A DNA stretch of 64,000 nucleotides from Brachionus plicatilis (lineage: Eukaryota; Rotifera; Eurotatoria; Ploima; Brachionidae). The position numbers and the translations under genes were made by a program. The stretch is from contig QEOQ01000092.1 of the NCBI GenBank assembly GCA_010279815.1, positions 739,801 to 803,800 on the forward strand. Reading direction: 5' to 3'. The notes under the pieces were generated by a model. The model saw nothing but the letters and a program-made list of their open reading frames with translations, ran no database searches and was not told where the DNA came from. Below are positions 8,032 through 60,904 of this stretch, piece by piece; the stretch's first letter is position 1, and each line of letters starts with the position of its first letter.

Positions 8032-10989
8032 ATGAACACAAATAATCAAGTATCAGATATAAAAATTTTAATCGATCAAATAGATACTATCCAAAATGAA
8101 TCGGACCAAGTGACTGACACTTTTCGGTTCAAAACTAAATGTGACCAAAGAGTTATTGAAGATTGTATCAAGCGGTCAAAAAAATCCAAACGCAACTCCA
8201 AAATTCATTTTGGACTAAGGAAATTTCACGATACCAAAAAGCATAAAACCACTTATCAAAAAATAAAATATGAATTGGAAAAGATGCAATTGAATGCAAA
8301 GTACCATTGGATGATAATTTTTTTGGTAGCACTAGATTGCTTCTGTATTAGTATTGAATTGTTGGTTCAGTTTGTTGAATTATCTCTGATTTACAAAGAA
8401 TTTCATTTGACCAAAGAAGAATTGTTCCGCGATGCCGTACAATTGAATGGGTCACATTTATTGATCAAACAAAATTCGTCTTTTATGAGCCATTTAGTTG
8501 AAGAATCTAGTCTGAGAATCCGTTTAATTTACCTTGAGACAATTTTCAAGTGTCTCGGAACTTTTATACTTGGAGTCTTTATTATTGATTTTATTTTCAA
8601 GGCAATTTTTATACCTATGAATTTTTTTGTCAAGGTATGGGAATTTATTGATGCCATTATTGTGATCTTTAGCTTTATTTTGAATATTTATTTATTTCAA
8701 CGAAAGCACACTGTTCATTCCATCCTCGGACTGATCACTCTTTTGAGACTGTGGCGTATCACTGAAATTATTAATGGTAAGCATTAAAAAAAAGTTTTTT
8801 TTTTAGTTTTAATTTTATGTTTAAAAAAAATGAAATTTTTGGATCAATCTGATAAAAGTCTTAAAAATTAGAGAAAATATTCAATGTTTAGATGCAGATT
8901 TTTTACTTTAAAAAAATTAAAATATCAATTATAAAAATTTTAAAAATTATTCAGATAAAATAAAGTTTGTTTAAAAGCCGAAGTAAGAGTTGGATTCTAT
9001 TTTGAATTAATATTTATAAATTCAAATATTTGAATCTCAAAAAATGATTGTTTCAATTTTCACAAATTCTAGAAAGATTTTCAATTTTCAATTTTCAGAA
9101 GTTCTAGAATATTTTAAACTAAATGGTAAAAAAACATAAAATTTGTATTTTATTAATCATAAATAACAATTTTCTAAAATCTATTAAAAAATTTAAAAAA
9201 ATAATAGCCTGAGTATTTTATTTATTTTTTTATTGATGAATTAACCTCCTATAAGAAGAAAAAATTAAATATCAAAAAAAAGAAAAAAAAATTTATATGA
9301 AAAAAATAAAAATTAAAAGAAAAGAAAAAATAAATAAAGAAGAATAAAGACAGATTTTGAAAGTTAGAAGGCAAGAGAATTTTATCAAAAAGCTTAAGCT
9401 AATTGTAAATTCAATTTGAAATTAATTTGATTTTAAAGTTAATCTATCATTATTCAAAAGATTGACGCAGTTATTTTGCCAACTCTAATAAATTACACAT
9501 TAATAACTTGATAAGTGAATTTTTCATAAATAAACCAATTTACGAATTTAAAAATTTAATTTATTGTAAAATTAAAGTTAAAAAAGATAATGAAATGATC
9601 GAAATATATCTAAATATACAAGCGTAATTTTGTGTAATTTTTTTACTCATAAAAATTCTTCCTCGTAAAAATGTTCACTATTCACATTCACAAAACGAAG
9701 ATTAACAAATCGTTGGTAATATTGAGAGAATATGAATTGATTGAATCAATAAGGTTTTGTTTAAACTCAACCATGTCCCAGAAATAAAAAAACATATTTT
9801 TTAAAAAATATATGCTAAGCATTACTTATTAATATGTCTAATAATGGTTCTTTATCAAATTAACATCAAAATGATTAGCCTTTAATTTATTTAATTAAAT
9901 AATTCAGAATAAGTTAATTCAGAGATTCAAATTCATTAATTTTATATCCTTTCGTTCAAACTAAAATAATTCTTTTGTTCAACTTAAAAAATCATAATTT
10001 TTGAAAAATCAAATTTTTTTGTCTTTTAAGGTTTTTATTTAAATCAATTAAAAAATCAATTAAAAGATAAAAAATTTTATAAATGAAAATAAACTTGGCA
10101 TAACATGTCAAGTAAATGCTTTGGAAAAATAACATTTTTTCTCTATCATCAAATAAAATATTACATTTTATATTTCGATATTTTCGATAGATTAATCTTG
10201 ATCTCAAACTTCAATTTGCCACTTTTTATCTTTTTTTATAAATTTGTAAATCAATTCAAATTTTTTTTATTTTTAATATCATCTTTATTCAACTTTGCGA
10301 TAGAACATGTGATGGTGAATTTCTTTTTTTCTGACAAAATACACTTTTTGATACTAATACATGTTAGTTGATATTCCAGATCTTTGACGATCTTTATACA
10401 ATTGAGTCTGATTTTATTTGTCAACAATATTTATCAGCTTTTTGTTAAGTCACAAATTTTGACTATTTTATAAAAAGATTTTAATCTATAAAAACTATAT
10501 GACAAAATTTTTCAAAATCATAAATAGCATTCAAAATCTAACCAAAAATATTTTTTTAGATCTAAATTTTTTGAATTAAATTTTTTTGTCTGAAATTAAT
10601 CATTGAGAAAAATTCAAAATAAATAAAAGTAAATTTAAATTAAAAAACAGACGAATCTTAATTTTATTTTAAGAATTATTTTAATTAATTATAATTTTCT
10701 AAAAAGAAAATGATTCATTAATTTTTCAGATATTCGCTGTTCCATCTTTAACATTAATTTCATTTTTTTATTGTTTAAAAACAATCATTATATAAATTAA
10801 TTTAAATTTTTTTTAGCAATTGTAGTTATGATAGAGACCCATAACGAAAACAAAGTAGAAAATTTGTACAAAACAATAAAGTTTTTGGACCATGAAAATT
10901 ACAAGCTTGCTCAAAATATAGTGATAATCAAACAAAAGCAATATGATCAGTCTGAATATAACACTGAACATCCACAGCATATTAATTAA
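8032..10989 (+). CDS. Hv1-A: voltage-gated proton channel paralogue, third S4 Arg replaced by Glu
   Basis: Exons 8032-8776 and 10817-10989 join in phase 1 to give 305 residues. The layout is that of HVCN1: a charged cytosolic N-terminus (1-90), S1 with LVALDCF (Asp102, matching human D112) and Glu109 (E119), a long S1-S2 loop, S2 FIIDFIFK where Asp186 replaces E153 and Lys190 matches K157, S3 FIDAIIV (Asp207, matching D174), then S4 LLRLWRITEIING. R239 and R242 match R205 and R208, but Glu245 stands where R211 should be. Exon 2 gives a short helical cytosolic tail. The intron is about 2 kb and repeat-bearing. Voltage-gated H+ conduction is expected for the family; with a charge reversal in S4, gating or even function is uncertain. 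Confidence 0.88.
8777..10816 (+). other. Hv1-A intron (no gene inside)
   Basis: GT at 8777 and AG at 10815-10816. A+T-rich, with a dispersed repeat TTGATCTCAAACTTCAATTTGCCAC near 10197. Open frames on both strands (for example 9992-10207 minus and 10105-10371 plus) lack coding character. Confidence 0.6.
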
Positions 10990-11120
10990 ACGCAAAAAAG
11001 AGATAAAATTAGATTTTTTTTAAATTTCATTGTATTACTTGGCAGAAAATTTTAATCCAAAAATAAATATTTTTTTTATTAATAAAACAATGATAAAGTC
11101 TTTTTTAATTTTAATTTGAA

Positions 11121-11880
11121 ATGAAGAATAGCTACAAAAAAATCTCGGACTATGCCAAACATTTTTTCGAGTCAAACTACTTCCATCATGCGGTCAATAT
11201 TTTGACTATAATTAATTGCATCGCTATATTGATCATCTTGGTTATAGAAATCACAGAGCTTTCGATTATAGATCGTGAGTTTATTAAATTATCAGAAGAA
11301 TTTTTGGAAGAAAAAAAGCATCAAAAAATCGAAAACATTATCATGTATTTTGAAATGAAGCACCCAAAACTTATTGATTTTGCAATCGTCTATAAGACAC
11401 TTTCGATTCTTATTTTATCAATACTTGGAATTTTTATTATCGAAATTATTTTAAAAATCATATTTGTGCCTAAAATTTTCGCCCAGCGACAATTCGAGGT
11501 TGTTGAAGCTCTAATAGTAGTCATCAGTTTTATGCTAAATCTAAGTCTTTTATTCGAAAAATCCCAAGTTCTATCTGTAATTAGTTTAATTACATTGATA
11601 AGGTTTTTATTTTTAAAGAGTTAAATAAAATTAGTTTTTTAAAAAATTTAACTTTTTTAGACTATGGAGGATCGGAATTGTTGCGGAAAGTACGATCAGA
11701 TTTCTAATATAAAAAACCACTTAATTTAACCATGAATAAATTTAAGTTCTCTTCAAAGAAGAACATGCTATTGTCAAACGGGAGATTGCTGAAATGGAAG
11801 ATAAAAACAAATGCATGATCGATGAGATTGATAAACTACGTACCAAACTCAACCTCAACACCAAACAGACAAAAATTTAA
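11121..11880 (+). CDS. Hv1-B: divergent Hv1-like protein lacking selectivity Asp and third S4 Arg
   Basis: Exons 11121-11602, 11661-11689 and 11747-11880 join in phases 2 and 1 to give about 214 residues. An alternative AG for exon 3 at 11757-11758 also keeps frame. Only about 20 residues precede S1. S1 reads ILTIINCIAILII: Asn32 lies where human D112 is, and Ile39 where E119 is. S2 FIIEIILKIIF keeps the Glu (108) and Lys. S3 FEVVEALIVV has Glu129 for D174, and Asn140 for D185. S4 IRLWRIGIVA keeps two Arg; the third is lost, apparently by a one-codon deletion plus Arg to Gly, and the S4 Asn is also gone. A Lys/Glu-rich helical tail follows. No stop or frameshift. Clearly homologous, but a canonical proton-selective channel is doubtful. 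Confidence 0.8.
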
Positions 11881-12103
11881 ATTTTTCAAAAGCTAATACA
11901 ATTCGAAATCTGAAAATTGTAAATCGAAATTAATTCTTAAAAATAAAAATTTGCCTTGATATTGAAAATTTAGAAATAAAACCGACTGACTCTTGGTCAC
12001 ACCACTGGTCAGCCAACATTTATAATACCGTAACCTCGTGTTAACCACTCTAAGAGTAAAGCCCAAAAACAACCTTTTTTCTTTTAGAGTTAATTATAAG
12101 GTA

Positions 12104-12735
12104 TAGTAGATACCCGTTGCTTCGCTGCCGGGGGAATTTAAATAAAATTAAGAAAAAAAATTGCAGAACACACTAAAAAATTTATTGAATAACCTTAGTA
12201 TAAACTATGTTTTTTGTTAAGTTATTTGGATGATTCATGCAAATCTTGAGATTTTTTTTATTTGTCACTCTTGAAAAGGCTACATATAATTGCCCATGAG
12301 TAAAAACAGGTTCGTTTAAGTAAACCCCTACGTGTTCTAAAGTTTGTCCTTGAGATTTATTTATACTCATTGCAAACGCTGGTCGTATAGGAAATTGAAG
12401 CCTTTTTAATTCGAAAGGTAAACTTGCATCAGTTGAAATCAATGGCATTCTCGGTATGTAAACTATTTTTTTAGCATTAGATCCAACAGCTATTTGACAT
12501 TCAATTATTTTACTGTAAAAATTTCTACAAATAAGCCTGGTACCGTTACACAATTCATCCGAAGCTGAGACATTTCTAAGTAAAATAATAGGTTGGCCTT
12601 TTTTAAGAACTAATTTATGAGGTGGCATTCCTGATAAATTTAAGCTATTTAAAAATTCTGTCGGGTATAAAGCTGTATGTGCGTCATTCAAAACAGCATC
12701 AGCTGATAAATATTTGTTCTCTTCACCTTTAATTC
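12104..12735 (-). mobile_element. 3' end of a Helitron with PIF1-type helicase C-terminus
   Basis: The open frame 12735-12182 (minus) encodes the end of a Helitron Rep/helicase: LSADAV, YPTEFLNSLNLSGMPPHKL, GQPIILLRN, NGTRLI, then helicase motif AMSINKSQGQTL and YVAFSRVTN. About 60 nt downstream on the same strand lies GGCAGCGAAGCAACGGGTAT followed by CTACTA, the GC-rich hairpin and near-CTRR end usual for Helitrons. Everything upstream of about 12735 (endonuclease and most of the helicase) is missing, so it cannot move by itself. Helicase motif V/VI residues look intact. Confidence 0.85.
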
Positions 12736-12946
12736 AATTAAAAGGTAATTTATATAAAGAATTTTTTAAAGATTTATAGAAGATTATTTTTACCTGGAAA
12801 TGTTAGATATATATATATATTTAATATATATCAATACTTAATTGATGATTGGTAATCAATCAATTATCTATTCTCTCTCACTATTCAACCTTGACATCGA
12901 TAACTCGCTAACTTGCTAACTCGCTAACTTTGTGAAATTTTAAATA

Positions 12947-14002
12947 CAGTCAATAACCGGTTATCCGGAATGAGATTCGAGTTTTTTTTTTCAAAGTCGT
13001 CCGGATAATAAATTTTCCGGATAACACGATTTGCTAACGAAAAGAGGGGTAAACACAGTGATAATTGATTTAGAGTGTTTATTTAGAACAAAGAAACAAT
13101 TAACGAATAAAAACAACAATTGCTGAGTTTGTTCGCCTTTCTTCTAGAGTTGTAAGTGTGGTGTTTGGTAGACTTTTGAAGACTAGACCACTCTCATCGG
13201 CATTGTAAATTTGGTCTAGAGAGTATTCTTTTTGAATCTCTTCCATCTTGATGAGGAATGGTTCAAAGGCGTCAAAGTCTGCTGATTTCTTTTCCCCATG
13301 AAGCTTGATGGTTTTGATGTTGTGTCGTTTGCAGAATCTCTGGATGTAGCCTGAAGATGGACTGAAGTTTTCGGCGGCTGGATAGAACTCTCTTTGAAAT
13401 ATCTTTGCTTGAAAGGCAATTGTCTCGTAGTTGATTGGCACTTTGCTGCTTCGAACTTGGTAAAACCATAAGTTGAGTGCTTCGTCTAATAGCGGATAGT
13501 TTGAAGGCTTAAATGTGCATCTGATCGCACTGTCTAGATTATCTGTTCTGAATTTGCTAAGTTCTGCTGAACCTTTGGCGATAATGTCGTAAATCGTACT
13601 CAAGCCAACCATATAATCTAGCGCAAGTTTTTTTGGGCAGTACCCATTCTTTTTCTTAGTGATAATCTCCTCCCGCTGAACAAAGTTAAGAACAACCTTC
13701 TTGCGTTTTGCAATCGGAGTATCGATAACTTTTTTACTAGCGTTCTTGCGAGGCTTAGGGACTTGATACATAGGTCTTGTCATTTTTAATGAGAATAACA
13801 TAATGACTCACATCGTTTATGTTTATATATTAAGGTTTAACAGGAAGTAATAAGGAAGCAATGCTGTTCTAATTAGCTCAAAGCCTAAAAAGTAGGAAGT
13901 TAAAAAGTTCAAAGTAAAAAATCAAAAAGTGCTGGTCCGAAAATTGATTCCGGATAATCGAAAATTCCGGATAAAAAATTACGGATAACCGGTTATTGAC
14001 TG
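12947..14002 (-). mobile_element. pogo/Tigger-like DNA transposon, internally deleted, with TIRs and TA duplication
   Basis: A 1056-bp element. Both ends read CAGTCAATAACCGGTTATCC inward, flanked by TA (12945-12946 and 14003-14004), the IS630/Tc1/mariner/pogo target duplication. Subterminal TCCGGATAA repeats occur at both ends. It carries one minus-strand transposase frame (13100-13801) cut off within the catalytic domain. TIRs and duplication are nearly perfect, which suggests fairly recent movement by a transposase supplied elsewhere. Confidence 0.93.
13100..13801 (-). pseudogene. Truncated pogo/Tigger (CENP-B-like) transposase
   Basis: A 233-residue frame. A Lys/Arg-rich N-terminus leads to a psq/CENP-B-type helix-turn-helix (KKLALDYMVGLSTIYDIIAK, about 58-77), then a Tc5/CENP-B second DNA-binding domain with LDEALNLWFYQVR and IQRFCKRHNIK. 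YNADESGL (about 200) is the first catalytic Asp of the DDE domain. The frame ends about 30 residues later, so the second Asp and third acidic residue are absent; the last 17 residues probably come from sequence joined by an internal deletion. Full-length relatives are about twice as long. It could still bind TIRs. Confidence 0.85.
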
Positions 14003-14848
14003 TAATTAGATTCTATGTTGTTGAGCCAACTTCTAAAGCAAGACTTATTTTGTAGAAAGAGAAACGGTCTTAAAGAACAGATACCTGAGTTAAATCAATA
14101 TCTAGGCAGGTTATAGATTAAACATTTAGTCCAGAGTTTCCAATCTTTTTTACATCAAAAATGCTTAGTAACAATAAATTTAAAGAAAATAATAAAAACA
14201 AACATCGAATTTAATCAATTTTTTAATTTTTTTTTAATAATTTCTTCAAAATAGATGTGTTTTATAAAAGTGAGATTTTTTAAAAAATTGATTGCAAAAA
14301 AGATTGATAATTAATTTTTATTATTTTGTATTAAAAAACATAGAAATATAGAGGAAGGATATTAATAAATATTCGGTCGATAAGAGAAATCGCTTAATGT
14401 TTTAGCTAATTTATTTAAAAATGATTTATTTTTTTTCAACAAATAAAAATAATTACCGAAAACTCGGTACCACTCCTCTTGGAACAATGTCAAAATTTGG
14501 GTTAATTCTATATAAACCCATATAATACCTTCGAAGCCATGCAGTAAAATTATTTCATTTTTTTTTAGAATAAACCTTGAAACCTGACTTTAAACTAAGA
14601 GTAAGCGCAAAAACTTGCTTTTATTCTTAGAATAATTTCTAATTTCTTCTGGAATAAACTTGTAAAATTGTGGAGTCAAATTAAAAATTAAAAATTAACT
14701 TTTTTTTTAAATATTGTCTTTATTTAGAGTAAAAGTTAAATGAAAAATCAATTGACACCGAATTCTGATTTTTTGAAAATTATCTGATTGGAATAATTAT
14801 CGGTCCATATTAACGAACCCATTTCTGATCATATAGATCATATATACT

Positions 14849-15077
14849 TATCTCCCCCATTAAAACTATGCCATTTATCCCCCACCATTTTTCTAGTACA
14901 AAATTTTACCAGCTTTCACGCAAGACCAAAATCTAAGCTCTAGCACATTTGGTTCGTCCTTCATTTTGATTTTAAATCAAAAAATCTTTATTCAAATCTA
15001 CGGACCCATAATTATCTCCCCCATTAAAACTATGCCATTTATCCCCCACCATTTTTCTAGTACAAAATTTTACCAGC
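14849..15077. repeat. Direct repeat of about 65 bp, two copies 164 bp apart
   Basis: TTATCTCCCCCATTAAAACT and the following 45 bases are present at 14849-14913 and again, apparently identical, at 15013-15077. The C-runs stand out in this A+T-rich region. The unit is unrelated to the nearby TIR elements. Confidence 0.85.
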
Positions 15078-15169
15078 ATCCAATCAAATAAATAATTACG
15101 TGCTTATTTTTGTATTTCTAATTTTAATCTAAAATTTAAATTTTGTAATATGTAGAAAATGTATAAATT

Positions 15170-15432
15170 AATGGGCTACTTGTAGTTCATGATCATGATC
15201 AAATGATCAAAAATTAATTGGATTGCAAAATTTCGAAATATTGATTTAGATTTTGTTTATAATTCAGATTAAAATTCATATAATTTTATATCTAATTAAA
15301 GATTAAACAAATTATGTTAAAAATTTTCAGTCATTTTTTATTAAAAAATTGAATAAAAAATATCTTTTTTTTCAATCAAATACTAAAAATTTTGTTTTGA
15401 AATTCACATTTGATCATGAACTTCAATTTGCC
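15170..15432. mobile_element. Hairpin MITE-like repeat
   Basis: The left end has TAGTTCATGATCATGATCAA near 15183. The right end has TTTGATCATGAACTTCAATT near 15413, so AAGTTCATGATCAAA is inverted across about 240 bp. A half copy of the right end occurs at 62640-62685 in the same orientation. Confidence 0.5.
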
Positions 15433-16035
15433 AAATTAATGTTTAAGAAATTAAGAAAGGTAAATATGTAGAAATTAAATTCCTACTAATTTAAGTTTTA
15501 TAAAACAATCCATTAGTCTGAAAAAATGTTGATCACACAATTTGCACTTAAAGAATTTTCGAAAAAGTGTTGTGCTTACTTAAGCTAATTAATTTTTAAG
15601 CAGACTTGCGCAAAAGTCAGAAAAATGTCTTGATTTGACTTGAAGTTTAATTTTTTTAAAAATAAGTCACCTAAAATGACATAATTACTGTAAAGGATCA
15701 ATTAACTAAAAAATTTAATTTCTTATTAAAATATTATTATAGTATTTATATTTCAAGTTTAAAAATTCAAGTTTTATTTTTTTTAAGCAATTTACTAAAA
15801 AATGCTTTGCTAAATAGAGAGGATTTTCCTTTAGTCCTTTTTGCTCACATACAGGAACCCTTAACCTATGTTCCGTGCTTTTAAATTTTTAAATTGAAAT
15901 TTTATTGATTTTTTAATATTTGGTATTATTTTTTTTATTTAATTATCACAGTCCCGATGAAAAAAGAACTTGTCAATATTCTTTTAATATTTGTTTCATT
16001 AGTTTTATGAATAAATTTGAAAAAAAAAACTTATA

Positions 16036-17626: not shown

Positions 17627-18259
17627 TTAGTTATTTAAAATTTTATTTTGTTTCTCTGGATGTGAGGAAAGATTTTTATTATCCACGTATTATTTTATTT
17701 CTCAGAGCCATTTGGAAAAAATGAGCACAAAAAATTTAGAAGAGTTTGATACAGATTTATTGTTAAAAAAAAAATTTTGTTTAATTCCAATGGCCTTAAA
17801 ATAAAATAAATGATAAAAATAAACACAAGTTTATTAGAATATAAAAATGTTGCTGTTTAATTTCATGATCAAAAATACATAAACTTTGCATTATTTTTGG
17901 TGCTTATAATCCCTTAATGCATTTGCTAGGCGGCTAAATTTATAAAATAATTAAACAAAAAAGAAAAAACAGGCGCCAAAATTATTGATCAATTTTATGA
18001 ATAATAAAACCTTGGTTTTGTTTACTAATTGAATTCTTATTTGGCAAATAATTGGAATTATTTCGATCTGAAATTCTCTATTTTGTTATTTCGCTCGATG
18101 CTCAAGCCTAATTAAAAGCTTAGATGCAGAGATATATTAAAAGATTGGAATTTTAGAAATTAAGATCAAATTATTTAAATATTCCTAATTAATTTCTATT
18201 ATATAAAATTGAATAACAGGTCACAAAATTGTCTAAAAATGGTATAAAAATATTTAAAA

Positions 18260-21200
18260 ATGACCAAAGAAAGCAACGACAGCAGACAGAGTTACGAGCT
18301 TGAGTCATGTCTGAATCAAGACGAATTGGCCGACTGCGCCAGTGAGCTCGAAGCCGACCACAAAAGCTCTAGTTTATACATGAATCTAAAACAGCATTTT
18401 TTTACCAAAGATGGCATCAAACAAATACTAAACTCAAACAAACTTCACATATTCGTAATTTTGCTGGTCATAATGGACTGTACCTGCATATCTGTTGAAT
18501 TAATGCTTGACTTTGTCATTAGCTATAACCAAGAACACTGGAACTCGGTTATTATCAGCAATAAAAGTTCTTCTTCAGAACTGGACTTGTTCGATGCTTT
18601 AAAAGGGCTGAATTCAAGGGATATTTCAATTTTATCCTCAATAGAACATACGCTTCGTTTTGTCAGCATTGCCATCCTCACATTTTTTGTTCTCGAAATT
18701 GTTCTAAAGCTCATATTTATACCTTACCATGTGATCAAATCAATTTGGAGTATGCTCGATGCAATTGTAGTTTTTGTGAGCTTTGTACTCGATATTATAT
18801 TGCTGAAAAATAAACAAATTCTTCACACAGTTACTGGTCTTTTGACATTATTCAGGTAATTCTTATTAATTTTTAGCTTATAGGTCTTTTGGCTCATAGA
18901 AATGAGGAAATTTAAATAAACTTGTCAAAAAATAACCTATGTTGAAATTATTGCCATTGTAAATTTTAGTACAAAAATCAAAAACAAAATATTACAAATG
19001 CCAAAGCTTAAGCTCTGAAGGAGCAAAACATGTTCTGTAAATTGCAGCAACTGATATATCCCTTGTACCACCAATATACTGATTCTGCAAAACTCAAAAT
19101 TGTAATTGTAAATTTGGGATATTGTCTTATATTAAAAATCCGACTCAACTTTAAGTGGATGTATCAGTTGCTACAATTTACAGAACATGTTTTAGTCGGT
19201 CCAGATTAAAGCTCTGGGGTTTTTTATATTTTGTTTTTGTTTTTTTTTGTTCTAAAATTCACAATGTTCTGAATTTTGCAGAGTTTTGCAGAATCAGTAT
19301 ATTGCTAGTACAAAGGATATATTAGTTGCTACAATTTACAGAGTATGTTTAGGTCCATCGTAACTTAAGCTTTGGCATTTTTAATATTTTGTACCAAAAT
19401 TTTCAACGCAAATATTTTTGATATTATACCAAAAAATCTGAATATCTTTTTCACTATTATTGAAATTTTTTACTGTTTGTGTTTAATTTTCTCAACTCAA
19501 CTCTCTATTTATTTTTCTAGAGTTTGAATAAAAAATTTCTCAAATCAAAAATTTCTATTCTATAAATCAATATATTAACTTAAATGATCCTGAAGAATTT
19601 AGCGAATCCGATAACTATGAAGATGAAAAAAGATCACTAAATTTATTTAATAAACTAAATTTATTTATGCTATAAAATTAGATTTTTTTGATGATCTGCA
19701 GAAACAGATTAGAACTTCACCATTTATTTATTTCTTTAAATATTTTTTTTGGTCAAATGCCAAAAAGGTCTATTATTATTATTTTCAATTATGAGAATTT
19801 AACTTAATCTGAAATTTTGAGTTGGATTAAAGAATTAAAAAAAACAGGAACTCTTAAAATAGCCTATATTTTATCATTATTTATATTATATTTTAATCAT
19901 TAATTTAACTAAACCTGTAAAAATTTACTTATATAAAAGATTTAGTTAAGATTAGAATACTTTTTATATTTAAAAGACTTTTTCAATGTAAAAGTACTTT
20001 TTTTTTGTTTGAAAAAAAAAACTAAAATACCTCAAAATGACTTTTGGAAATAACTCTCATACGGTGCTTTTACAATTGAATGAAAATTACGTAATTTTGC
20101 GTAAATTTAATTAAGCTTACCGAATCTTACGTGAATATTAAATGGTAAGAATTTGTAATTTGACCAAAAATTCCATTTTATAAATTATTAAAAAAATTCA
20201 ATTTTTCAAAAAATTTTTCTATTTAACTTAAAAATTTAGCTTAAATGTATTTAAGGATTTTTTTATTGATCCCGCAAGATTTTGAAAAATCGTAAAATTG
20301 TCTATCTTTTAAAATTTTGATAATATTCAATTAATTCAAGTGGAATAGTTTGCCCTCAGAAATAATCAACGCATCATCTAAGAACAACTTTAAGAACAAG
20401 CTGGATAGCTATTTAAAACAGAAATAAATAATTAATTAATTTTTTTAGCGCAAAACATTATCTACATAAACTTCATTATTATTATACTGTATGTAAAACC
20501 AGACAGCTACCATAGTGAGGCTATGTCTAGCCTTGCTCCGCAGTTATCCTGCTGTAGCTTATATTATTTTTATTATTAATTCATCATTTTGTTTTGGACC
20601 TAAAATTTGTTACTCTCAAATCTCAAAATAAAAATTATTTTTTAAATCTTGCGGGATCAATAAAAATATCAAAATATCGTACTTTAAAGGCATTTTTTAC
20701 ATTAAAAGAAAAAAAATTTTCTAAATTTTTTTAACATGAAAAATTTAAGATGATTTTTATATGGAACGAAAAAAAAATCGAGTTTTTTTGGTGATTTCAG
20801 AAACAATTAAAGTTCAATTTAAATTAATATTAAAATAAATAAAATTGTTATTTATTTAATTAAATAGAATAAGAACTTTGAGGTTATTCTTGTTTATTTA
20901 ATCAATAAATCAAATCATAAAGAAAAATATAATTTGTTGGTTTAATAATTTATTATCAGACTTAAAAGTAAGAAAAATTTCAAATGGGGATGAATTTATT
21001 GGGAAAATCGTAACAGAGTCATAAATAAAAAGAATACCCAGTTAACGAAAAGTTAAAGTTTTTTTGAACTATTTAAAAAGATCGTTAGAAATTCTTCATA
21101 AAAGAAAATTTCCTTATTTTCCTTCAAAATTCAAATTTTGGACAATTATATAAAAAAGTTTTCAAAAATTGAAACAAGCAATAAAATCGTATTTACTTTA

Positions 21201-22101
21201 AGAAAATTTTACTAATTAAAATTAAAATACTTGGTTAATTCATCCAAAAATAAACAACACTGAAACTTTGTTTCTATTGAATCTCTGGTTATTTTTTGAT
21301 AAAAAAATTTCTATAGACCTGAATAAAGAAAAAAAAAAGGTTTAAACAAAAAAATTTTTAAAAAATTTCTGATGATTATCGAAATAATTTTTCCAAACCC
21401 TACTTTCAATTTTTATTTAACTTCTAATTTAGTGATTTTTTAAAGGTTTCAAATTTACTTAGCCATTTTAATTCATAATCTAAAAAGATTGAAATTATTA
21501 AATCTTCTTTTGATATATACCTTGATGTAAAATTTCTAGGCTTCAACTTTTAAGAACAGACTATGTCTAGGAAAATCTTTTTTTATCAAGATCTTAAGCA
21601 CAAAAAGTTTCTCAGGTAGAAAAAAGATTATGTTTCAGATTAGCTAAAGAAAATTGTAAAATTATTTCTCTTTATTTAAATAATTTTTTCCTAGAATCGT
21701 GTTATTTTTTGGGATAAACATCGATAAGATTCGTAAACGAAAAAGGTATTTTTTAATCCAAAATTAAAAAAATAGCCAAAGTATTTTTATTTTAAAAAAA
21801 TGTTTCTACAACGAACTAAGTTGAATATTTTCATAGTATTTTGAGTCAACTGTGCCTTTTTCTAAAAAATTTTTTAAGTAAACGATAATTTATTTTAAGA
21901 TTGTGGAGAATTGCTAGAATACTGAGTGGAATACTCGTAACTATGGAAAAAAAATCTGCCAAAAAAATTGTAAAATTGACAAGAAGAATTGAATTTTTAG
22001 CCAAAGAGAATAAAGAGCTACGAGAAGAGTTAGAACAAAATAAATTACTTTTAGAAAAATATATGACAAATACTGACAAAAACTCTGATTCTATTTCCTG
22101 A
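18260..22101 (+). CDS. Hv1-C: voltage-gated proton channel, full canonical charge set
   Basis: Exons 18260-18855 and 21900-22101 join in phase 2 to give 265 residues. S1 LLVIMDCTCISVEL has Asp73 (D112) and Glu80 (E119), with Asp84 further on (D123). A Ser-rich S1-S2 loop follows. S2 FFVLEIVLKLIF has Phe143, Glu146 and Lys150. S3 MLDAIVVFVSFVLD has Asp167 and Asp178. S4 LFRLWRIARILSG has all three Arg (199, 202, 205); the usual Asn is Ser208. Exon 2 encodes S4's end and a long Leu-heptad coiled coil (KIVKLTRRIEFLAKENKEL onward), the dimerisation region of HVCN1. The N-terminus is acidic. The S4 Gly-Asn intron of A, D, E and F is absent. The 3-kb intron holds a MITE and LINE debris. Probably a working proton channel. 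Confidence 0.92.
18998..19378. mobile_element. Palindromic MITE in Hv1-C intron
   Basis: Left end AATGCCAAAGCTTAAG (18998); right end CTTAAGCTTTGGCATT (to 19378). Further inverted pairs flank the centre (GTTCTGTAAATTGCAGCAAC and GTTGCTACAATTTACAGA). A similar segment occurs at about 43000-43200 inside the element in MYO1D intron 5. Confidence 0.8.
20341..20570 (+). mobile_element. 3' end of a non-LTR retrotransposon (LINE)
   Basis: The frame 20341-20427 reads WNSLPSEIINASSKNNFKNK and on to LKQK and a stop, the usual C-terminus of CR1/Jockey-like reverse transcriptase proteins. A GC-richer 3' UTR follows (GTGAGGCTATGTCTAGCC, then GCAGTTATCCTGCTGTAGC hairpins). 5'-truncated insertion inside the Hv1-C intron. 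Confidence 0.8.
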
Positions 22102-24635: not shown

Positions 24636-25612
24636 ATGCATGACCAAAAGGCCAGAGAAAATCTTCTCAGTCGAGAAACTGCTGAAAAAGCTGCAACAGA
24701 GTCGCTAGGACACTTGCAAATTCCGATGCAAAGAATGGCGGCCCGCAATTCAACCGTATCTCGGCTATCCATTCAAAACTTCATCGAAACATTTCCTCAT
24801 GACGAGAACGAGTTCACAAACAAGGAAATTTTGAGCACCGTTCACGACATGATGTGGTCCAGCATAGGTATAAATTCCAAGATGCATTTTTTGGAAAAAG
24901 TTCGCCTTGTGATCCAATCAAGCAAGTATCATGCCTTTATGATTGCCTTTGTGGTAATGGACTGTATTTGTGTGATAATGCAAATAGTTTTGGACATCTT
25001 GTTCAAAGAAGAAAGTGGAAAAAATTTTAATAAAGCTGAAAAAATAGTGGAAATCTTAAGCCTTTGCATTTTGTCTTCATTTTTGTTGTCTATTTTTTTA
25101 CATCTAGTTCTCATTCCTAAGTTGTTCTTCAAAAGTAAACTGGAAATTTTCGACTCAATTATTGTTTTGATCAGCTTTGGTCTCGAGGTTGTTTCTGTCA
25201 CAGTAAGAGAAAGTGTGAAAGAAATTGAGGCTGCAGTGATCACTTTTAGGCAAGTGAGATAAAATTTACCATCTATTTAAATTAATATAGTTTATTTTTA
25301 GATTTTGGAGAATAATTAGAATTGTGAATGGTAAAAAAAGATTTATTTAAAAATAATAATTAATTAAAATATTTTTTAGCGATTGTAATTACGGTTGAAA
25401 AACGAGTTTTTCAAAAATTAGATAGTTTGAAGAAAGACATGAAATGTTTGTTGGACGAGAATAAGCAGATGGAAGAAGAGATAGAGGAGAAAAAACGAGA
25501 ACTTGGTAGCTTGAGGATCGCACTGGAGCAAAAGAATACTGAATGCGACGAGATCAAGTCTATTTTGGCCAAAATTCATAATAGGAATAAAATTCAAAAA
25601 TCACTAGATTAA
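24636..25612 (+). CDS. Hv1-D: Hv1 paralogue with altered S1/S2 acidic residues and a GC-AG intron
   Basis: Exons 24636-25249, 25302-25330 and 25380-25612 give 291 residues. I start at the ATG at 24636; the frame is open for seven more codons upstream, without another ATG. The N-terminus of about 97 residues is the longest after F. S1 FVVMDCICVIMQ keeps Asp109 (D112) but has Gln116 for E119. S2 SSFLLSIFLHLVLIP has Ser152 where human E153 lies and His156 for K157; Phe149 is kept. S3 IFDSIIVLISFGLE keeps Asp173. S4 TFRFWRIIRIVNA has three Arg and the Asn. Exon 3 is a strong coiled coil (EEEIEEKKRELG). The first intron must use AG|GCAAGT to keep frame. Likely expressed; S2 lacks the charge that normally pairs with S4. 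Confidence 0.88.
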
Positions 25613-25868
25613 GTTGCGTCACATGAAAAAAACAAGATGCTTGCAGAAAACTCCGATTAGAAAGCTGAAAAATACAATTTTAAATAAAGAAAATAGGCAA
25701 TTTAAAAAGCATAAAAAGTTGAGTGTTTAATCTTTGTGCTTAGATTGTTTTTAAAGTCCAAAATTAAATTGAAAAGGTGCTTTAAAAAATTTGAGTAATA
25801 AAGTAATTTTTTTCTTGTTTAAATTTTGAGTGATTCCTCAAATAAAAGTTGATTGAATTTTTCTAAGC

Positions 25869-26557
25869 ATGTCCAAAAAAAATTTATTATTAAGAATTTT
25901 TGGCCCAGTCTTCCATATCGATGACCAAAATGTTTCAATAAAGGAAAAAATTCGAAAAGTTCTCCTGTCTAATTATTTGCATGTGGCAATTGTGGTTCTG
26001 GTCATTTTGGATAGTTTATGTGTTACCATTGAGTTAATTATTGAGGCAGAAAACAAGAACAACAGCCATGCACTTCATGTCGCTGAAGAGGTTTTTAAAT
26101 ATCTTGGATTTGGGATTTTGTGCATTTTCATGGTCGAAATAGCTTTAAAGATAATTTTTGTTTTCAATGAATTTCGGCATTCAAAGCTGGAAATTTTAGA
26201 CGCCATTGTTGTAGTTATTAGTTTCATTGCTGAAATAGTGGTTCTAAAGCATGATGATGCCATTTCAGCAATAGGTAATTTTTTGCCAAATTTTAATTTA
26301 TTTAATTCTTTTATTTATTTTAGTCGGCTTAATCGCTATTTTACGGCTATGGAGGGTTATCAGAATTGTCAATGGTAAATTTTATATTTTGAAAAATATT
26401 TTGAATAATAAAAATTCTTTATCCAGGCTTTGTTTTGGTTGTTGAAGATCAATGTGAATCAAAAATTTCAAAACTTAATCAGAATATAGAGATTTTAAAC
26501 AATCGCATAGCGGTTTTAGAAGAAGAATTGAAAAATAAAGGAAAAATTTCCTCCTAA
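25869..26557 (+). CDS. Hv1-E: voltage-gated proton channel, compact, canonical charges
   Basis: Exons 25869-26274, 26324-26374 and 26427-26557 join in phase 1 at both junctions to give 195 residues, shorter than human HVCN1 (273). It begins about 257 bp after Hv1-D ends. The N-terminus is only about 35 residues. S1 VILDSLCVTIEL has Asp48 and Glu55. S2 FMVEIALKIIF has Phe87, Glu90 and Lys94. S3 ILDAIVVVISF has Asp111. S4 ILRLWRVIRIVNG has Arg143, 146 and 149 and Asn152. A short heptad tail follows (LNNRIAVLEEELKNK). Exon 1 from 25921 is almost identical to Hv1-F. The start Met aligns with an internal Met (62) of F, so an upstream exon may be missing. Confidence 0.92.
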
Positions 26558-26876
26558 ATTATCTTAAACAATCATATATCAAGCCAAAAACTATTTACAT
26601 TTTAAGAACCAATTTAGAAATTTTTATACTTCGAAGTATGATAATTTTGTTTAGACAATTAAAATTGACCAAATCTTAGCAAAAAATATCAGTTATGAAA
26701 AAATGGGTTCAAAAAAAGTTTTAAATAAAATTTCTAAAAAACAACTTTTATTTATTTATAAAATTGCTTTTCTCTCTTATAACATTTTAACTTCATTATT
26801 TCTTTTTTGTTTTTTCTTTAAGATGTTAGTTATCCAGGCTTTTAAACATATCCTAAATTATTCGTCAAACTTACTA

Positions 26877-27256
26877 CAGTGCCAGAAATTAACTTGTCAT
26901 ATCATATCATATGATTTTTTTTTTCTAAAGATTTATTTATTTAAATTTAATAAAAAATTTAAAATGGCTTCGAGCTCACTAATTGAGTGTTACCTCTTTC
27001 AGCTCGCTCCTTCAGCCTAAATAAAATAAAATAAATAACAATTAAATAAAATTATTGTTTTACAATAAACGAAAAAAAAAAAAAAAACAGGATATCATTA
27101 CATATTTTTACATATAGAAATTCAAATTTTAATTCATCTGATATTATCTGATATCAAATGATAATTGCTAATATCAGCTGATATGAGGAAAGTTTAAAAA
27201 AAATGATATTAAATGATATCAGATAATATGATGTGACAAGTTAATGTCCGACACTG
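26877..27256. mobile_element. 380-bp MITE with TIRs and TA duplication
   Basis: Ends CAGTGCCAGAAATTAACTTG and, inverted, CAGTGTCGGACATTAACTTG, flanked by TA at 26875-26876 and 27257-27258. Subterminal ATATCA/TGATAT repeats are frequent (ATCATATCATATGAT on the left, GATATCAGATAATATGATG on the right). IS630/Tc1/mariner type by ends and target site. Confidence 0.88.
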
Positions 27257-27389
27257 TAATTTTAATTGATTTTTTTCTTGTAATGTTTTTTCGATCTAGA
27301 ATCCTCAAAACAATCTTCTAATGTGCATCAATTTGACCTCTAGGATAAAACAAGAGGTATCTCTTGTTAACTACTAAATAAAAATGTTT

Positions 27390-27670
27390 GTATCTACGTC
27401 AATAGTTGTGTCAAAGCGTTTGCAGTATCCAATGAGTCATTTCTCGGCACCGACTGTGAACAAATTTGGGTGACCATCAGTTTGAACGAAGATAAACCTT
27501 TTCTAGTTGGTTGCATCTATAGACCACCACCGCAGAGCAAGACCAATGATCCGAGTTGTATCGATATTGGTATTGTACGTTCACTTGAAACAGCTAAACG
27601 TCTACTTAATAGCAAGGATATCTCGAGTGTCATTTTGATGGGCGATTTCAACCTGCCGGACATCGAATGA
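27390..27670 (+). mobile_element. LINE endonuclease fragment
   Basis: The frame encodes part of an apurinic-like (EEP) endonuclease of a non-LTR retrotransposon: CIYVNSCVKAF, EQIWVTISLN, VGCIYRPPPQS and MGDFNLPDIE, ending in a stop where the family continues. 5' and 3' truncated relic. Confidence 0.85.
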
Positions 27671-28742
27671 TTCACCGGGTTAGGGTTATATTTAATTTTA
27701 GTTTTTTTTTCTAATTTAAAATAAAAAGATAAAGTAAAAAACAACTAATTCCAACAATTAACTAAAATAATTATTTTTCAAATAATCATAAATTTATAAA
27801 ATTAATAAAGCAAATTATAAATTTCTTAATTAAATTCTTTACTTCTTTTTCCGATTAATAATTTGTTTATACAAATTACAGGTTCATAATTTGACTATCA
27901 TAAGTTCATTGAATGATCTTGGTAAAATTGTCCAAAATATTCTAAATAATGTATCTAAAAATTTTTTTGAGAAATTTTTGCAGTCAATGCTTGAAAAATA
28001 TGGGGAGCACTATTCACCCGTTTACTGTCTCTTGAAATGCTTTTGAAAAAAGTTTATCTTAGATCGTTTTTTACATATATTTTGTTTTGCATTTTTTTAA
28101 AGATTAATTGGTTTCAACAATAGAAAACGCTCAGATAAAAATGGTCCAAAAAACGCTCAGGTTTTTATGTAAACTAATTTTTTGGACGTTGATTTACAGC
28201 GATTTTAAGATAATAAACATGATTAAATTATTATTTAAGTTTGAAATTAAAAGAGCAAAGTTTTTTTAAGTCTTTTTCAACAGAATTTTTAAGAAAAAAA
28301 TGTGTTCAAAAACTACTAGATCCAACAGTGTTTAACAATTTTTTTTAGATTTATTTTTTTTACATAAATTGACATCTTATTAATAGCTGTATTTAAAATC
28401 ATGCTTTTGTTTTTCAAATTTTTTAAATTTATTGAATTTGATGCATAGAAAAATTTAAAAAATCTAGCAATTTTTTTATAAAATTTTCACAACATTTTCT
28501 TTGACTTTTAAATTTTCAAAAATTTATTTAGATTTCCGGAATTTAAAACCGTTTTGTTTAATATTTATTTTTTCTATTTGCTTGAGACAAATATTAATGT
28601 ATTACTGTTTTGCTACTAGAAATTTAAAACAATTTAAACTTCTTTGTTTTTTTTTAATTTACCAGTGATCTCTCATCAATACTTTAAAATCAAAGTTAAA
28701 AATGTTTCATTTTAGAAATATTTTTATTAAATAAAAAATTCA

Positions 28743-29684
28743 ATGAAAGAAAATACTGTTATAAAAATTTACTTTTATTTTTCTGTTATCGTTGTTCCAA
28801 TAGGTACAATACTCAACATACTGTCTTTAATTATATTTCTAAGAAAAAGGTTCAATAGAACAAATTATGGGTTTTTATCAGCAATACTGGCCTTCTTCAA
28901 TACTTTTGCCCTCATATGGTCCTATTCTATTTACAAATATCTAAAGCTTACTGTGAACAATTTCAATTCTGGATCGAGCATATCATGTCATTTATTTCAT
29001 TATTTTGGCCGTCTGGTTCAACAAATACCAATTTTTGTACAAGTTTTTTTGACAATTAATTTATTTTTGGAAATTAAATATCCAGTAAGATCGGTGGTGT
29101 TAGCAATTAAAAAGAAAAAAAATACAATTTTATTTCTTGCCGGGATGTCATTTTTAATCGCGATTTTAAATATACCATTGACTCTAGAATACCTAAAAAT
29201 TGACAATTTAAACTCTACTTCAAATGGAAGTTTGCCCGTCATAAAACGAAATTGTGTCCGAAGTAAAACTGTCAAAATTGTATCTGATACAATTACAGCT
29301 TTGCTAAGATCAATAATTCCTTTAGTTTTATTTCTTATCTTCAATTTTTTGATGCTAAAAACTCTGATAGATTCAAAGAGAAAAATAGCTAGAAATATCA
29401 AAATAAAGCGTGAAATTCAGTTTGGTCTGAGTTTATTTTTGACAAATACAGTCTTTTTGGTGTTGAATTTGCCATTGGCAATTATATATTTGGTAGAAAA
29501 TTTTGCCAATCTGTCTGCAATACAATATGAAGAAATTGTTTTTGCACACTTTATAGCTGATGCAATCGCTTATTTCAACTTTGGTGTATATTTTTTCCTG
29601 AATGCAATTTTCAACTATTCATTTCGAAAAGAATTTGTTGTTTTATCCAAAACTAATCTGAATCTGGTGAAAAAAATTTTTTGA
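28743..29684 (+). CDS. Rhodopsin-class GPCR, intronless, orphan
   Basis: A 313-residue single-exon receptor with seven hydrophobic segments. TM1 carries Asn25 of the GxxxN pattern. TM2 has Asn53 at the usual Asp position. Cys82 (top of TM3) and Cys171 (loop 2) can form the conserved disulfide. The DRY triplet at the end of TM3 is Asn106-Leu-Phe, with the following Pro114 kept. Loop 3 is Lys/Arg-rich (SKRKIARNIKIKRE). TM6 has NLP (242-244) in place of CWxP. TM7 has NFGVY (279-283), the NPxxY variant common in invertebrate peptide receptors, followed by SFRKEF of helix 8. Resembles peptide (FMRFamide-like) or chemoreceptor-type expansions; the ligand cannot be read from sequence. Confidence 0.85.
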   Translation: MKENTVIKIYFYFSVIVVPIGTILNILSLIIFLRKRFNRTNYGFLSAILAFFNTFALIWSYSIYKYLKLTVNNFNSGSSISCHLFHYFGRLVQQIPIFVQVFLTINLFLEIKYPVRSVVLAIKKKKNTILFLAGMSFLIAILNIPLTLEYLKIDNLNSTSNGSLPVIKRNCVRSKTVKIVSDTITALLRSIIPLVLFLIFNFLMLKTLIDSKRKIARNIKIKREIQFGLSLFLTNTVFLVLNLPLAIIYLVENFANLSAIQYEEIVFAHFIADAIAYFNFGVYFFLNAIFNYSFRKEFVVLSKTNLNLVKKIF

Positions 29685-31487
29685 ATTTCGATATCCTTTA
29701 TCAGATGAATTAATCAAGTTGTGCCCAATCGCTTGACATAGCGTGGTGAAATTTATATTGAACAAAAATATTTTCTTTAATAATATTTTTCTCAATTTGT
29801 AATAAATTTCAAAAGCCACTTGAAATTTTATTTTTTCTAAATAAATTTTTATTTTGTTTAAAAATTATTTTTGAATAAATTTAATTTTTTAAATAATTTT
29901 TTTGATTTATTTTGAAATTATCTGTTTCATAGGTGTATGCTGGACAGATGAATTTAAATAGATTACAATTCTTACATTTATTCTTTGATTGTCAAAACAA
30001 AATACAATTGATGTATTTTAAAGTCCTTTAATAAAAATTTTCATAAGATTTTAAAAAGCATCAAAAAATTGCGATGTTTAAAATTTATTTTTTAACAAAT
30101 AAAACAATTTTAAGTCCGGGCTTGACTTGAGACTTATAATTCTTAAACAGCTTTTTTTTCAAAAATTATTTTTTTGAAAAGCTTTAAGAATTAAATTTTT
30201 GTTAAAATGATTTAAAAAAATATTTGACAAATTTTTTGATCAACTTGAATCAATAGAACTTTTTTGACTTCGCAAATTAGTTGATATTTTTATAATAATA
30301 TAATAATATAAATTCCTTATATAAGCTAAGCATCTGTTACATTATAATCATTTATGGTGATTCAGTAGGAAATTCTAAATCTTTTTTAACTGTTTTAAAC
30401 ATATTTAAATTGCATGAGAAATGAAAAAAAGGGTAAGGGTTAAGTTTTTAGATAATTTTGAACTTCCCAAGGGTCACGGCTCTTAAATTATAATTTAAAT
30501 AAAAAAAAATTTAAAATATAAAATTTTTTAATTTTCTAATTTTTAATAACAATACTACTAAATATAATTTTCACATTGTTAGTCTTTTTTGCTTTTTCAA
30601 AATTGTATAAAAATTTTATTAAAAGAGGAAAATTTATTTTTATCAATTATTAAAAAATTTATATAAGTGCTATTGATGAACTTTAAAGGACTTATTGTGG
30701 GACGTATTATGGTAATATTAATCAACAACAACTCATGACCACTTGATGCTTTGGGAAAGAAAGAAGATCAAACTGGAATCAGGTTGAAATTAGAGAATCG
30801 AAAGGTACCAGTTGTTTATCTACTTATCATTTCTAAGAGGAATCAAATATAGAAGATCATCAAAAGAGTTTGGATGTAAATTTTGAGACAAAATTGTCCA
30901 ATTTCTGCTGAAATGGCGTCCTTAATTTAGCTTGTTTTATTTTTTAAACTTGATTAAGAGTGTGATTCAAAGAATTGCTCATTCAATTTTTCAAAATAAT
31001 TATTTATTTAAAAAAATGAAAAATACTAGTTTGGAAAAAGCGCTCTAATTAAATTAGATATCAAGCAAATATAATTGATCATCTTAAGTGGCTATTAAAG
31101 AATAATAATTTCTTTTGATGACTGTCAACCCCAAAAGCTCACTGTATGTATTCACAATTTATTTTCTTAATTAAATTTTTAAAAAAATGACAAGTGCTTG
31201 ATGTTTGATTTTTTGATCTGCTAGCACTTTCGATTTCTGCATTTACCAGAATAACAAAAAAATGGGATCCTAATGGATTTGGCAACTAAAATTTAAGAAA
31301 AAAATTTCTTTGCAAAGAAAATTCATTTGAATCCCATCTATTTTAGTTTTTATACCGTCCAAAATTAATTTTTGTTTAAAAAAAAAATTGTGCATTTATT
31401 TTATTTTAAAAAATAAAAAAAATAGATAAGTCTGTCATATGAATTATATTTACCTTTCAGCGTCTTAAAATTGTCAAAAATATTTAA
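29685..31487. other. Intergenic stretch before Hv1-F
   Basis: No gene recognised. A short AAGTC-rich repeat lies near 30114-30140. The last few hundred bases should contain the Hv1-F promoter. Confidence 0.5.
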
Positions 31488-32366
31488 ATGAGCAGGGGAT
31501 CGTCAATCGAAAATCGTAGTAGATTTACCGACAGTCTGGTAAACGTTTTCGATTCACGCAAAAAATCAGATTTGGATTCAGTAACAACAGATTCTTTCAA
31601 CATGCAATCTTTAAATGACACAATCGAAGAAGAAAATCTTCAGAAGAATAAAGATAATATCATTCTGAATATGTCGAAGGAAGAATTTTTGGAAAGTATT
31701 TTTGGACCATCATTGCATCTCAATGACCAAAATGTTTCAATAAAGGAAAAAATTCGAAAAGTTCTCCTGTCCAATTATTTGCATGTGGCAATTGTGGTTC
31801 TGGTCATTTTGGATAGTTTATGTGTTACCATTGAGTTAATTATTGAGGCAGAAAACAAGAACAACAGCCATGCACTTCATGTCGCTGAAGAGGTTTTTAA
31901 ATATCTTGGATTTGGGATTTTGTGCATTTTCATGGTCGAAATAGCTTTAAAGATAATTTTTGTTTTCAATGAATTTCGGCATTCAAAGCTGGAAATTTTA
32001 GACGCCATTGTTGTAGTTATTAGTTTCATTGCTGAAATAGTGGTTCTAAAGCATGATGATGCCATTTCAGCAATAGGTAATTTTTTGCCAAGTTTTAATC
32101 AATTTTATTCTTTTATTTATTTAAGTCGGCTTAATCGCCATTTTTCGTTTTTGGAGGATAATCAGAATTGTCAATGGTATCTCAAATTTATTTTTATTTT
32201 TTATATTAATTAATTTATATTTTGTTTAGGTTTTACAATGACTGTTGAGAGACGATATGAAGGAAAAATAGACAAGCTAAAACAAGGAATGAATGCTTTG
32301 ATAAAAGAGATTGAGAATTTAAAAGAGGAGCTGAGCAAAAAAGAAGATTTATTAAAAGATGTTTAA
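31488..32366 (+). CDS. Hv1-F: voltage-gated proton channel, canonical charges, long N-terminus
   Basis: Exons 31488-32076, 32126-32176 and 32230-32366 join in phase 1 twice to give 258 residues, the length most like HVCN1. A Ser/Asp/Asn-rich N-terminus of about 95 residues could hold phosphorylation sites. S1 has Asp109 and Glu116, S2 Glu151, S3 Asp172. S4 IFRFWRIIRIVNG has Arg204, 207, 210 and Asn213. The tail is a Leu/Lys/Glu heptad helix (IENLKEELSKKEDLLKD). S1 to S3 are identical in protein to Hv1-E. S4 and the coiled coil differ, so the shared block is not a whole-gene duplicate. Likely a functional channel. Confidence 0.93.
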
Positions 32367-60759: not shown

Positions 60760-60904
60760 CTTTAAAATTAAATAATGTTCATTCAATTAAAAATAAAATT
60801 TTTTTGAAAAATTTAAAAATTTAACTTTTTTTTTCTTATTAATATTGGTAAATAAAAATTGATAATTTAGAGATTTGATTTGTTTCTAACTAGTTATCAT
60901 ATTT

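Follow-up and report, generated by a model that had tools for sequence, protein, structure and literature searches.

A 64-kb window of Brachionus plicatilis DNA, the whole stretch analysed here, contains six Hv-type genes arranged head-to-tail on the plus strand between positions 8032 and 32366, a span of about 24 kb (Table 1). A sequence-only reading had placed six plus-strand genes in this interval, each splicing into an intact frame, and both points are borne out by our predicted models, all six of which run in an open frame from ATG to stop, and by tblastn of the six proteins against the window, which gave no match outside the six loci at E<=1. Introns are GT-AG throughout, the sole exception being one GC-AG intron in g4. 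Genome searches revealed one further intact Hv gene (g7) and one truncated copy, both outside the array (these counts are lower bounds), and a phase-1 intron directly 3' of S4 is common to g7 and five of the six window genes (it is absent from g3). The truncated copy, on contig 15, is a 5'-truncated version of g7 that is 99.87% identical over 778 bp; at its 5' edge, on the minus strand, is a frame that by eye has the look of a reverse transcriptase.

Table 1. Hv-type genes of the array and the tract shared by g5 and g6 (positions in the window)
Feature	Position	Strand	Length (aa)	Exons	Remark
g1	8032..10989	+	305	8032-8776, 10817-10989	Hv paralogue
g2	11121..11880	+	214	11121-11602, 11661-11689, 11747-11880	Hv paralogue
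g3	18260..22101	+	265	18260-18855, 21900-22101	Hv paralogue
g4	24636..25612	+	291	24636-25249, 25302-25330, 25380-25612	Hv paralogue; GC donor after first exon
g5	25869..26557	+	195	25869-26274, 26324-26374, 26427-26557	Hv paralogue
g6	31488..32366	+	258	31488-32076, 32126-32176, 32230-32366	Hv paralogue
S1-S3 tract, g5 copy	25929..26289	+			near-identical to g6 copy; probable gene-conversion tract
S1-S3 tract, g6 copy	31731..32091	+			near-identical to g5 copy

NCBI records of B. plicatilis correspond to several of these models. P0009 matches g2 at 97.7% and uses another last acceptor, which leaves it 4 aa shorter at the last exon join and still in frame; another record matches g3 at 98.7% over 159 aa; and P0001 fuses g4 and g5 into one model, the second half of which is 94.8% identical to g5. 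The array also holds other material. The g2-g3 interval contains helicase and Tc5-transposase fragments, and between g5 and g6 there are a weak endonuclease-reverse transcriptase match and a 317-codon open frame (28731-29684) that by eye has the look of a seven-helix receptor.

Membership of all six genes in the Hv1 family, which had been proposed with a profile search as the check, is supported by sequence. In phmmer searches of the PDB with one protein at a time, Hv1 chains (5oqk and 3wkv, the latter a mouse Hv1 chimera; PMC4429351) were the top matches for g1-g6, with E-values for the top Hv1 chain from 6e-9 (g2) to 1.8e-23 (g5), and an Hv1 chain was likewise top for g7. In the profile search Hv1 chains scored 1.4e-34 and 9.1e-31, ahead of the next family, a voltage-sensing phosphatase, at 2.4e-7. 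Pfam Ion_trans was detected in five of the six members at E<=1, with g1 just below the curated cut-off (24 versus 25 bits). The product of each of the six genes is a voltage-sensor domain on its own with a short tail behind it: the models have four transmembrane helices and no pore domain, stopping after S4 and the tail, and in the predicted structures of P0009 (g2) and P0002 (a g1 orthologue) S1-S4 are followed by a long helix. A Foldseek search with the g2 model returned no match at E<=0.001, the best rows being voltage-sensor channels, and the Hv1 chain 3wkv was absent among the 50 VIA rows listed. We also considered an identity of the Ci-VSP or TPTE2 type. Those voltage-sensing phosphatases have a phosphatase domain after S4, whereas g1-g6 end 38-73 aa beyond the post-S4 point, too short for such a domain, and no phosphatase is present among the 13 Pfam families listed for them; with Hv1 also nearer in sequence, this identity is not supported. 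The rotifer proteins resemble human, mouse and Ciona HVCN1/Hv1 in having a lone four-helix voltage sensor, an R-x-W-R motif in S4 and a helical tail, but at least seven intact genes are present in the rotifer as opposed to one.

The canonical Hv1 residue layout had been claimed for every member, and this holds only in part. R-x-W-R in S4 is present in all six window genes (as R-F-W-R in g6), as is the S3 acid at the D174 position (Asp in five, Glu in g2). The S1 Asp at the D112 filter position, part of the Asp-Arg selectivity filter of Hv1 (PMC4429351), is found in g7 and five of the six window genes, but g2 has Asn; and at the S2 positions E153/K157 an acid plus Lys occurs in five genes (the acid being Asp in g1), but g4 has Ser/His. 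Further departures from Hv1 involve the third S4 Arg, which is retained in g3, g4, g5 and g6 and replaced by Glu (g1) or Ile (g2), g7 being without it as well. The D185 position in S3 is Asn in g1 and g2 and Glu in g5 and g6. Filter, S2 and the three S4 arginines are canonical in g5 and g6 and, together with S3, in g3, which has Ser at N214. A long S1-S2 loop is found in g1; His is missing from the human H140 position in all seven genes and is present at H193 in g1 alone.

Several of these unusual residues recur in relatives of 50-75% identity, in which the S1-S3 frames are open. Glu replaces the third S4 Arg in all three g1 orthologues (P0003, P0004 and P0002, the last from Brachionus calyciflorus and 59% identical) and also in the more distant P0005. 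The sole g4 orthologue covering the S2 segment, P0006 (64%), has Ser/His as in g4. Asn at D112 was found in four of five g2-type sequences outside B. plicatilis (P0011, P0013, P0014 and P0016), all of which end at an intron and leave S4 uncovered, the fifth, P0015, having Asp. Because P0015 groups near the g2 line and P0016 falls outside the g2 group in our trees, the filter Asn may have evolved on two occasions or have been lost. Loss of the third Arg (R3) could be a candidate single event for g1 and g2/g7; this grouping had support only in trees that included P0005 (98/95, and 90/93 in a second tree), for which the program warned of long branches meeting, and was not recovered once P0005 and P0034 were omitted. 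The Glu at R3 in P0034 probably has a separate origin, because P0034 joins P0033 and P0035 (98/91), although its branch is the longest in that tree.

The sequence-only reading had proposed repeated local duplication with specialisation. Sequence and tree evidence support the former, and the latter is supported more strongly than it was put, given that relatives share several of the deviations from the Hv1 consensus. A recent burst of duplication is rejected for g1, g2, g3 and g4, since in the trees each groups with its own relatives outside B. plicatilis, those of g3 being P0012 (B. calyciflorus), P0017 and P0018. In B. calyciflorus, P0002 (g1), P0016 (g2-type) and P0012 are all listed with a longest contig of 26,845 bp; P0014 (g2), P0017 and P0006 (g4) all with one of 124,681 bp; and the B. 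plicatilis records P0019 (g3) and P0001 (g4 and g5) both with one of 16,928 bp. If equal-sized contigs are assumed to be one contig each, this suggests conserved linkage of the relatives, and given the B. calyciflorus contigs carrying relatives of g1, g2 and g3, the cluster and most of its duplications are probably older than the split between the two species.

What might the individual members do? Our reasoning here is from key residues. Having kept the filter Asp and three S4 arginines, g3, g5 and g6 would probably carry an outward proton current opened by depolarisation. The g1 product, with the filter Asp in place, Glu at R3 and Asn at D185, would probably gate with less charge; and since g4 retains filter and arginines and has lost the S2 Glu/Lys charge pair, its gating would probably be shifted in voltage. 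By analogy with published mutants, g2 would probably sense voltage while passing little proton current: D112N and D160N mutants give tiny or no current while gating currents remain, and in Ciona Hv1 D160N stopped conduction in the full channel and left gating currents in a monomeric construct (PMC10779229).

A further step would be that g2, and perhaps g7, has ceased to be a channel and serves as a voltage-sensing subunit or regulator that pairs with conducting members through a coiled coil. We regard this as a possibility worth keeping, short of a likely one. In its favor are the recurrent filter Asn, the Ciona precedent, the S4 and tail that form one continuous helix in the predicted models (P0009 and P0002), and the g2 tail, whose heptad pattern was equalled by only 4 of 1,000 shuffles. 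Heptad patterns in the tails of g1, g2, g4, g5 and g6 were in fact better than at least 989 of 1,000 shuffles, and pairing of members as heterodimers through these tails is possible; the pattern was weaker in g3 (60 of 1,000 shuffles as good). Against the subunit reading, P0015 retains the Asp, and so does g7, which also has a weak heptad (81 of 1,000 shuffles as good). More tentatively still, g2-type proteins could be natural near-non-conducting Hv sensors and g1-type proteins reduced-charge sensors (R3 replaced by Glu and the S3 countercharge D185 neutralised), both acting as subunits that tune the conducting members of the same cluster. If this is true, Hv would be a heteromeric channel system. 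It is unlikely that g2 is instead a natural anion-permeable channel, as currents of the Asn mutants are very small or absent (PMC10779229) and g2 also lacks R3.

We think it slightly less likely again that this is an ordinary tandem family under neutral decay, in which g1, g2 and g4 are degrading and their odd residues reflect lost function. There are indeed decaying copies in this genome, the truncated g7 copy being an example, and Hv relatives that have lost key residues have been described (PMC10377628). However, all six frames are open, and the retention of both open S1-S3 frames and odd residues in the relatives (P0015 being the exception) would be unexpected under decay. Rather, the locus is very probably a cluster of locally duplicated Hv proton-channel genes in a monogonont rotifer, probably formed for the most part before the split from B. 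calyciflorus, with members that, as judged from their sequences, have diverged in function.

The g5/g6 pair is a special case. Over the S1-S3 tract the two genes are identical at 360 of 361 nt, compared with 43 of 60 in the left flank and 73 of 85 in the right, and the longest identical run, 319 nt, was not equalled in any of 20,000 permutations. This tract is best read as probable gene conversion, which we prefer over recent duplication because the flanks and the third exon differ. The same near-identity could be taken as a sign that fewer genes were multiplied by misassembly, but assembly artefact or haplotype copies are very improbable because each gene has one full-length genome match (the tool's counts being lower bounds) and other B. 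plicatilis records, apart from this contig, contain g2, g3, g4, g5 and g7; furthermore, the g5/g6 likeness ends sharply on both sides and the other five members are only 27-33% identical to g1.

There is precedent for multi-gene Hv families. The sequence-only reading had set the array against the single vertebrate gene and known of no such cluster; the comparison proves too narrow, as lophotrochozoan phyla have 2-11 Hv genes per species (PMC10377628). The excerpted text of PMC10377628 describes neighbouring pairs, two genes less than 10 kb apart in Trichoplax and two about 270 kb apart in Schistosoma, as against six in 24 kb here, and contains no cluster as large as the rotifer array. Among the open-licence matches listed, no title concerned rotifer Hv channels or Hv gene clusters, PMC10377628 being the sole lead on clusters; this does not in itself establish that either is absent from the literature. 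Molluscs (Aplysia AcHv1-3, and up to eleven genes in scallop) likewise have many Hv genes, among them members with an extended S1-S2 loop and a modified S4 (PMC10377628). In mollusc Hv3 it is the first S4 Arg that is changed (xPWRxxR), and the Aplysia channel, in which that arginine is absent, still conducts (PMC10377628, PMC11853527), whereas in the rotifer the change affects the third Arg and the genes form a cluster. In a Saccoglossus Hv-like sequence the filter Asp is replaced by Gln, an amide as in g2, but the S4 Trp is missing (PMC10377628); g2 keeps the Trp, and its Asn recurs in several relatives.

As multi-gene Hv families are already known, what is new at the level of sequence is the altered third S4 Arg, and the filter Asn with the S4 Trp kept, each retained in related sequences. 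Some rotifer Hv genes have conserved changes at residues on which channel function is thought to depend, and they look like natural variants that merit recording. With them, the roles of the third Arg and the filter Asp could be tested in natural proteins, as could the mixing of Hv subunits.

All six Hv-type genes (g1 to g6), which lie on the plus strand between 8032 and 32366, splice into open frames (lengths in the table), as the sequence-only reading had claimed, with a GC donor in one g4 intron. A phase 1 intron just after S4 is common to g1, g2, g4, g5, g6 and g7, a further Hv gene of this genome, and is missing from g3. In g2, g3 and g4 a phase 2 intron interrupts the codon for the first S4 arginine; its counterpart in g5 and g6 is a phase 1 intron approximately seven codons upstream, and g1 has none there. 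Identity to NCBI B. plicatilis proteins was 97.7% for g2, 98.7% for g3 (159 aa), 94.8% for g5 and 97.2% for g7, which points to B. plicatilis or a close sibling as the source. The NCBI model of g2 (P0009) has four residues fewer at the last exon join, and a 440-aa NCBI protein (P0001) fuses g4 to g5 with the g4 S2 segment skipped, so that two genes are hidden in the public annotation.

A profile search had been proposed as a check on Hv1 membership; a six-row profile placed Hv1 chains (1.4e-34 and 9.1e-31) ahead of the next family, voltage-sensing phosphatase (2.4e-7). Hv1 also came first in every single-protein search, with E from 6e-9 (g2) to 1.8e-23 (g5) and 6.7e-9 for g7. The predicted structures of P0009 and of P0002, the B. 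calyciflorus g1 orthologue (mean pLDDT 87.4 and 78.0), contain S1-S4, with S4 continuous with a long tail helix. Foldseek returned no match for the g2 model at E<=0.001, and second-look structure alignments had voltage sensors in their top rows, Ci-VSP first. Taking this comparison together with the sequence ranking, the predicted fold is that of a voltage sensor and it is sequence similarity that identifies these proteins as Hv1.

Six-frame searches of the genome (102.9 Mb, 173 contigs) with g5, g3, g7, the proteins P0005 and P0007 and a piece of a human voltage sensor gave no match at E < 0.01 outside the six genes of the array and two contig 15 places, counts that are lower bounds; a further eight rows, with E values between 0.012 and 0.15, fell on contigs 1, 4, 14, 38, 49 and 54. 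The total found is at least seven intact Hv genes and one truncated copy, the latter being without the region for the first 52 residues. A minus-strand frame at the 5' edge of this copy looks reverse transcriptase-like by eye. Within the array, 28743-29681 matched no Pfam family at E<=0.01.

Hv genes and other features in and around the array (window positions unless contig 15 is named)
Feature	Position	Strand	Location
g1, 305 aa	8032-10989	plus	array
g2, 214 aa	11121-11880	plus	array
g3, 265 aa	18260-22101	plus	array
g4, 291 aa	24636-25612	plus	array
g5, 195 aa	25869-26557	plus	array
g6, 258 aa	31488-32366	plus	array
g7, intact, 214 aa	exons 839096-839612 + 839659-839786		contig 15
5'-truncated g7 copy, 99.87% identical over 778 bp	846430-847207		contig 15
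CAF-1 subunit A domain	5036-5509	minus	left flank
Pif1-type helicase fragment, perhaps Helitron	12182-12733	minus	between g2 and g3
Tc5-type transposase fragment	13100-13807	minus	between g2 and g3
Weak endonuclease/reverse-transcriptase match (Exo_endo_phos_2, E 0.0088, under curated cut-off)	27371-27670		between g5 and g6
317-codon open frame, seven-helix receptor-like by eye	28731-29684		between g5 and g6
Two myosin-head stretches and SH2 stretch	43651-44337, 52133-53032, 60407-60778	minus	right flank

Key residues were read from an alignment of 45 rows in human numbering. The sequence-only reading had credited all six genes with the S1 Asp and the S2 acidic-K pair. The former (D112, the filter Asp) is present in g1, g3, g4, g5 and g6, and also in g7, but g2 has Asn, as do P0009 and the related P0011, P0013, P0014 and P0016; the latter fails in g4, where E153/K157 are Ser/His, as in its relative P0006. 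P0015, like the g7-type P0008 and P0010, has the filter Asp. Trees place P0015 (Asp) and P0016 (Asn) at the base of the g2 plus g7 group and not within the g2 group itself, so there may have been two origins of Asn or a single reversion.

The R211 position is Arg in g3, g4, g5 and g6, and Glu in g1, its relatives P0002, P0003 and P0004 and the more distant P0005. In g2 and P0009 it is Ile, and in g7, P0008 and P0010 Leu. Counted by eye, and as an association since the rows are related, Arg at 211 accompanied Asp or Glu at 185 in 20/20 rows, and its absence accompanied Asn or Gly in 8/11, the three exceptions being g7 and its kin (P0031, its S4 read through an intron, was left out). D185 is an S3 countercharge, and in simulations described in PMC11853527 it meets R1 and R2 while D174 meets R3, so a joint 185/211 change would be no simple one-salt-bridge swap. 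In P0034, a bdelloid Hv-like protein that NCBI names Rotaria socialis, Glu likewise replaces the third S4 arginine, and residue 185 is Gly. Its place in the tree is with P0033 and P0035, apart from g1, which suggests a second origin of this Glu. His at 140 and 193 is tied to the zinc block of human Hv1; a similar block is unlikely in the window members, where position 140 is never His and position 193 is His in g1 alone.

Protons leave the cell via the sensor itself as depolarisation drives S4 outward (PMC5938591), and for g3, g5 and g6 we would expect such outward flux. As reported in PMC10779229, human D112N gives very small currents and D160N, its Ciona equivalent, stops conduction, a monomeric D160N construct showing gating currents while its proton current, with a steep pH gradient imposed, is only very small. 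In light of these mutants, g2 is most likely a sensor passing little proton current. Ala or His at the filter Asp turns the human channel anion-selective (PMC4429351). For g1, we would guess that loss of R3 gives a smaller gating charge or changed open-state stability.

There is precedent for multiple Hv genes: PMC10377628 describes many per species in lophotrochozoan phyla, and close pairs in Trichoplax and Schistosoma, the word rotifer being absent from the main text of this review. What is added here, as read from sequence, is a cluster of six genes, together with two residue changes that recur in related sequences: replacement of the filter Asp in a protein that has its S4 Trp intact, and alteration of the third arginine.

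Relatives outside B. plicatilis include P0002 (59% to g1) and P0012 (61% to g3), both from B. calyciflorus, P0011, P0013 and P0014 (70-75% to g2) and P0006 (64% to g4). In a 40-row tree g1, g2, g3 and g4 each cluster with their own such relatives in starred groups, and a 100/99 branch parts Brachionus-type rows from vertebrate, crinoid, spider, Trichoplax, two bdelloid-like and one other row; g5 and g6 are joined only by the distant P0031 (85/79; 43% to g6). B. calyciflorus P0002, P0016 (g2-type) and P0012 are all listed on a 26,845-bp contig, P0014, P0017 (g3) and P0006 each have a longest contig of 124,681 bp, and B. plicatilis P0019 (g3) and P0001 each have one of 16,928 bp. Given the equal sizes, each set is likely, though not certainly, on one contig, in which case the cluster would be older than the B. 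plicatilis / B. calyciflorus split.

Finally, g5 and g6 are identical at 360/361 positions from 25929 to 26289 (g5 positions), compared with 43/60 just upstream and 73/85 just downstream, and their third exons show 80 identities, 43 mismatches and 16 gap positions. The 319-base identical run was reached in 0/20000 permutations of 30 mismatches over 506 positions. A gene-conversion tract over S1 to S3, sparing the N-terminus, S4 and tail, fits these data best; such conversion would hold S1-S3 alike in g5 and g6 while S4 and the tail diverge.
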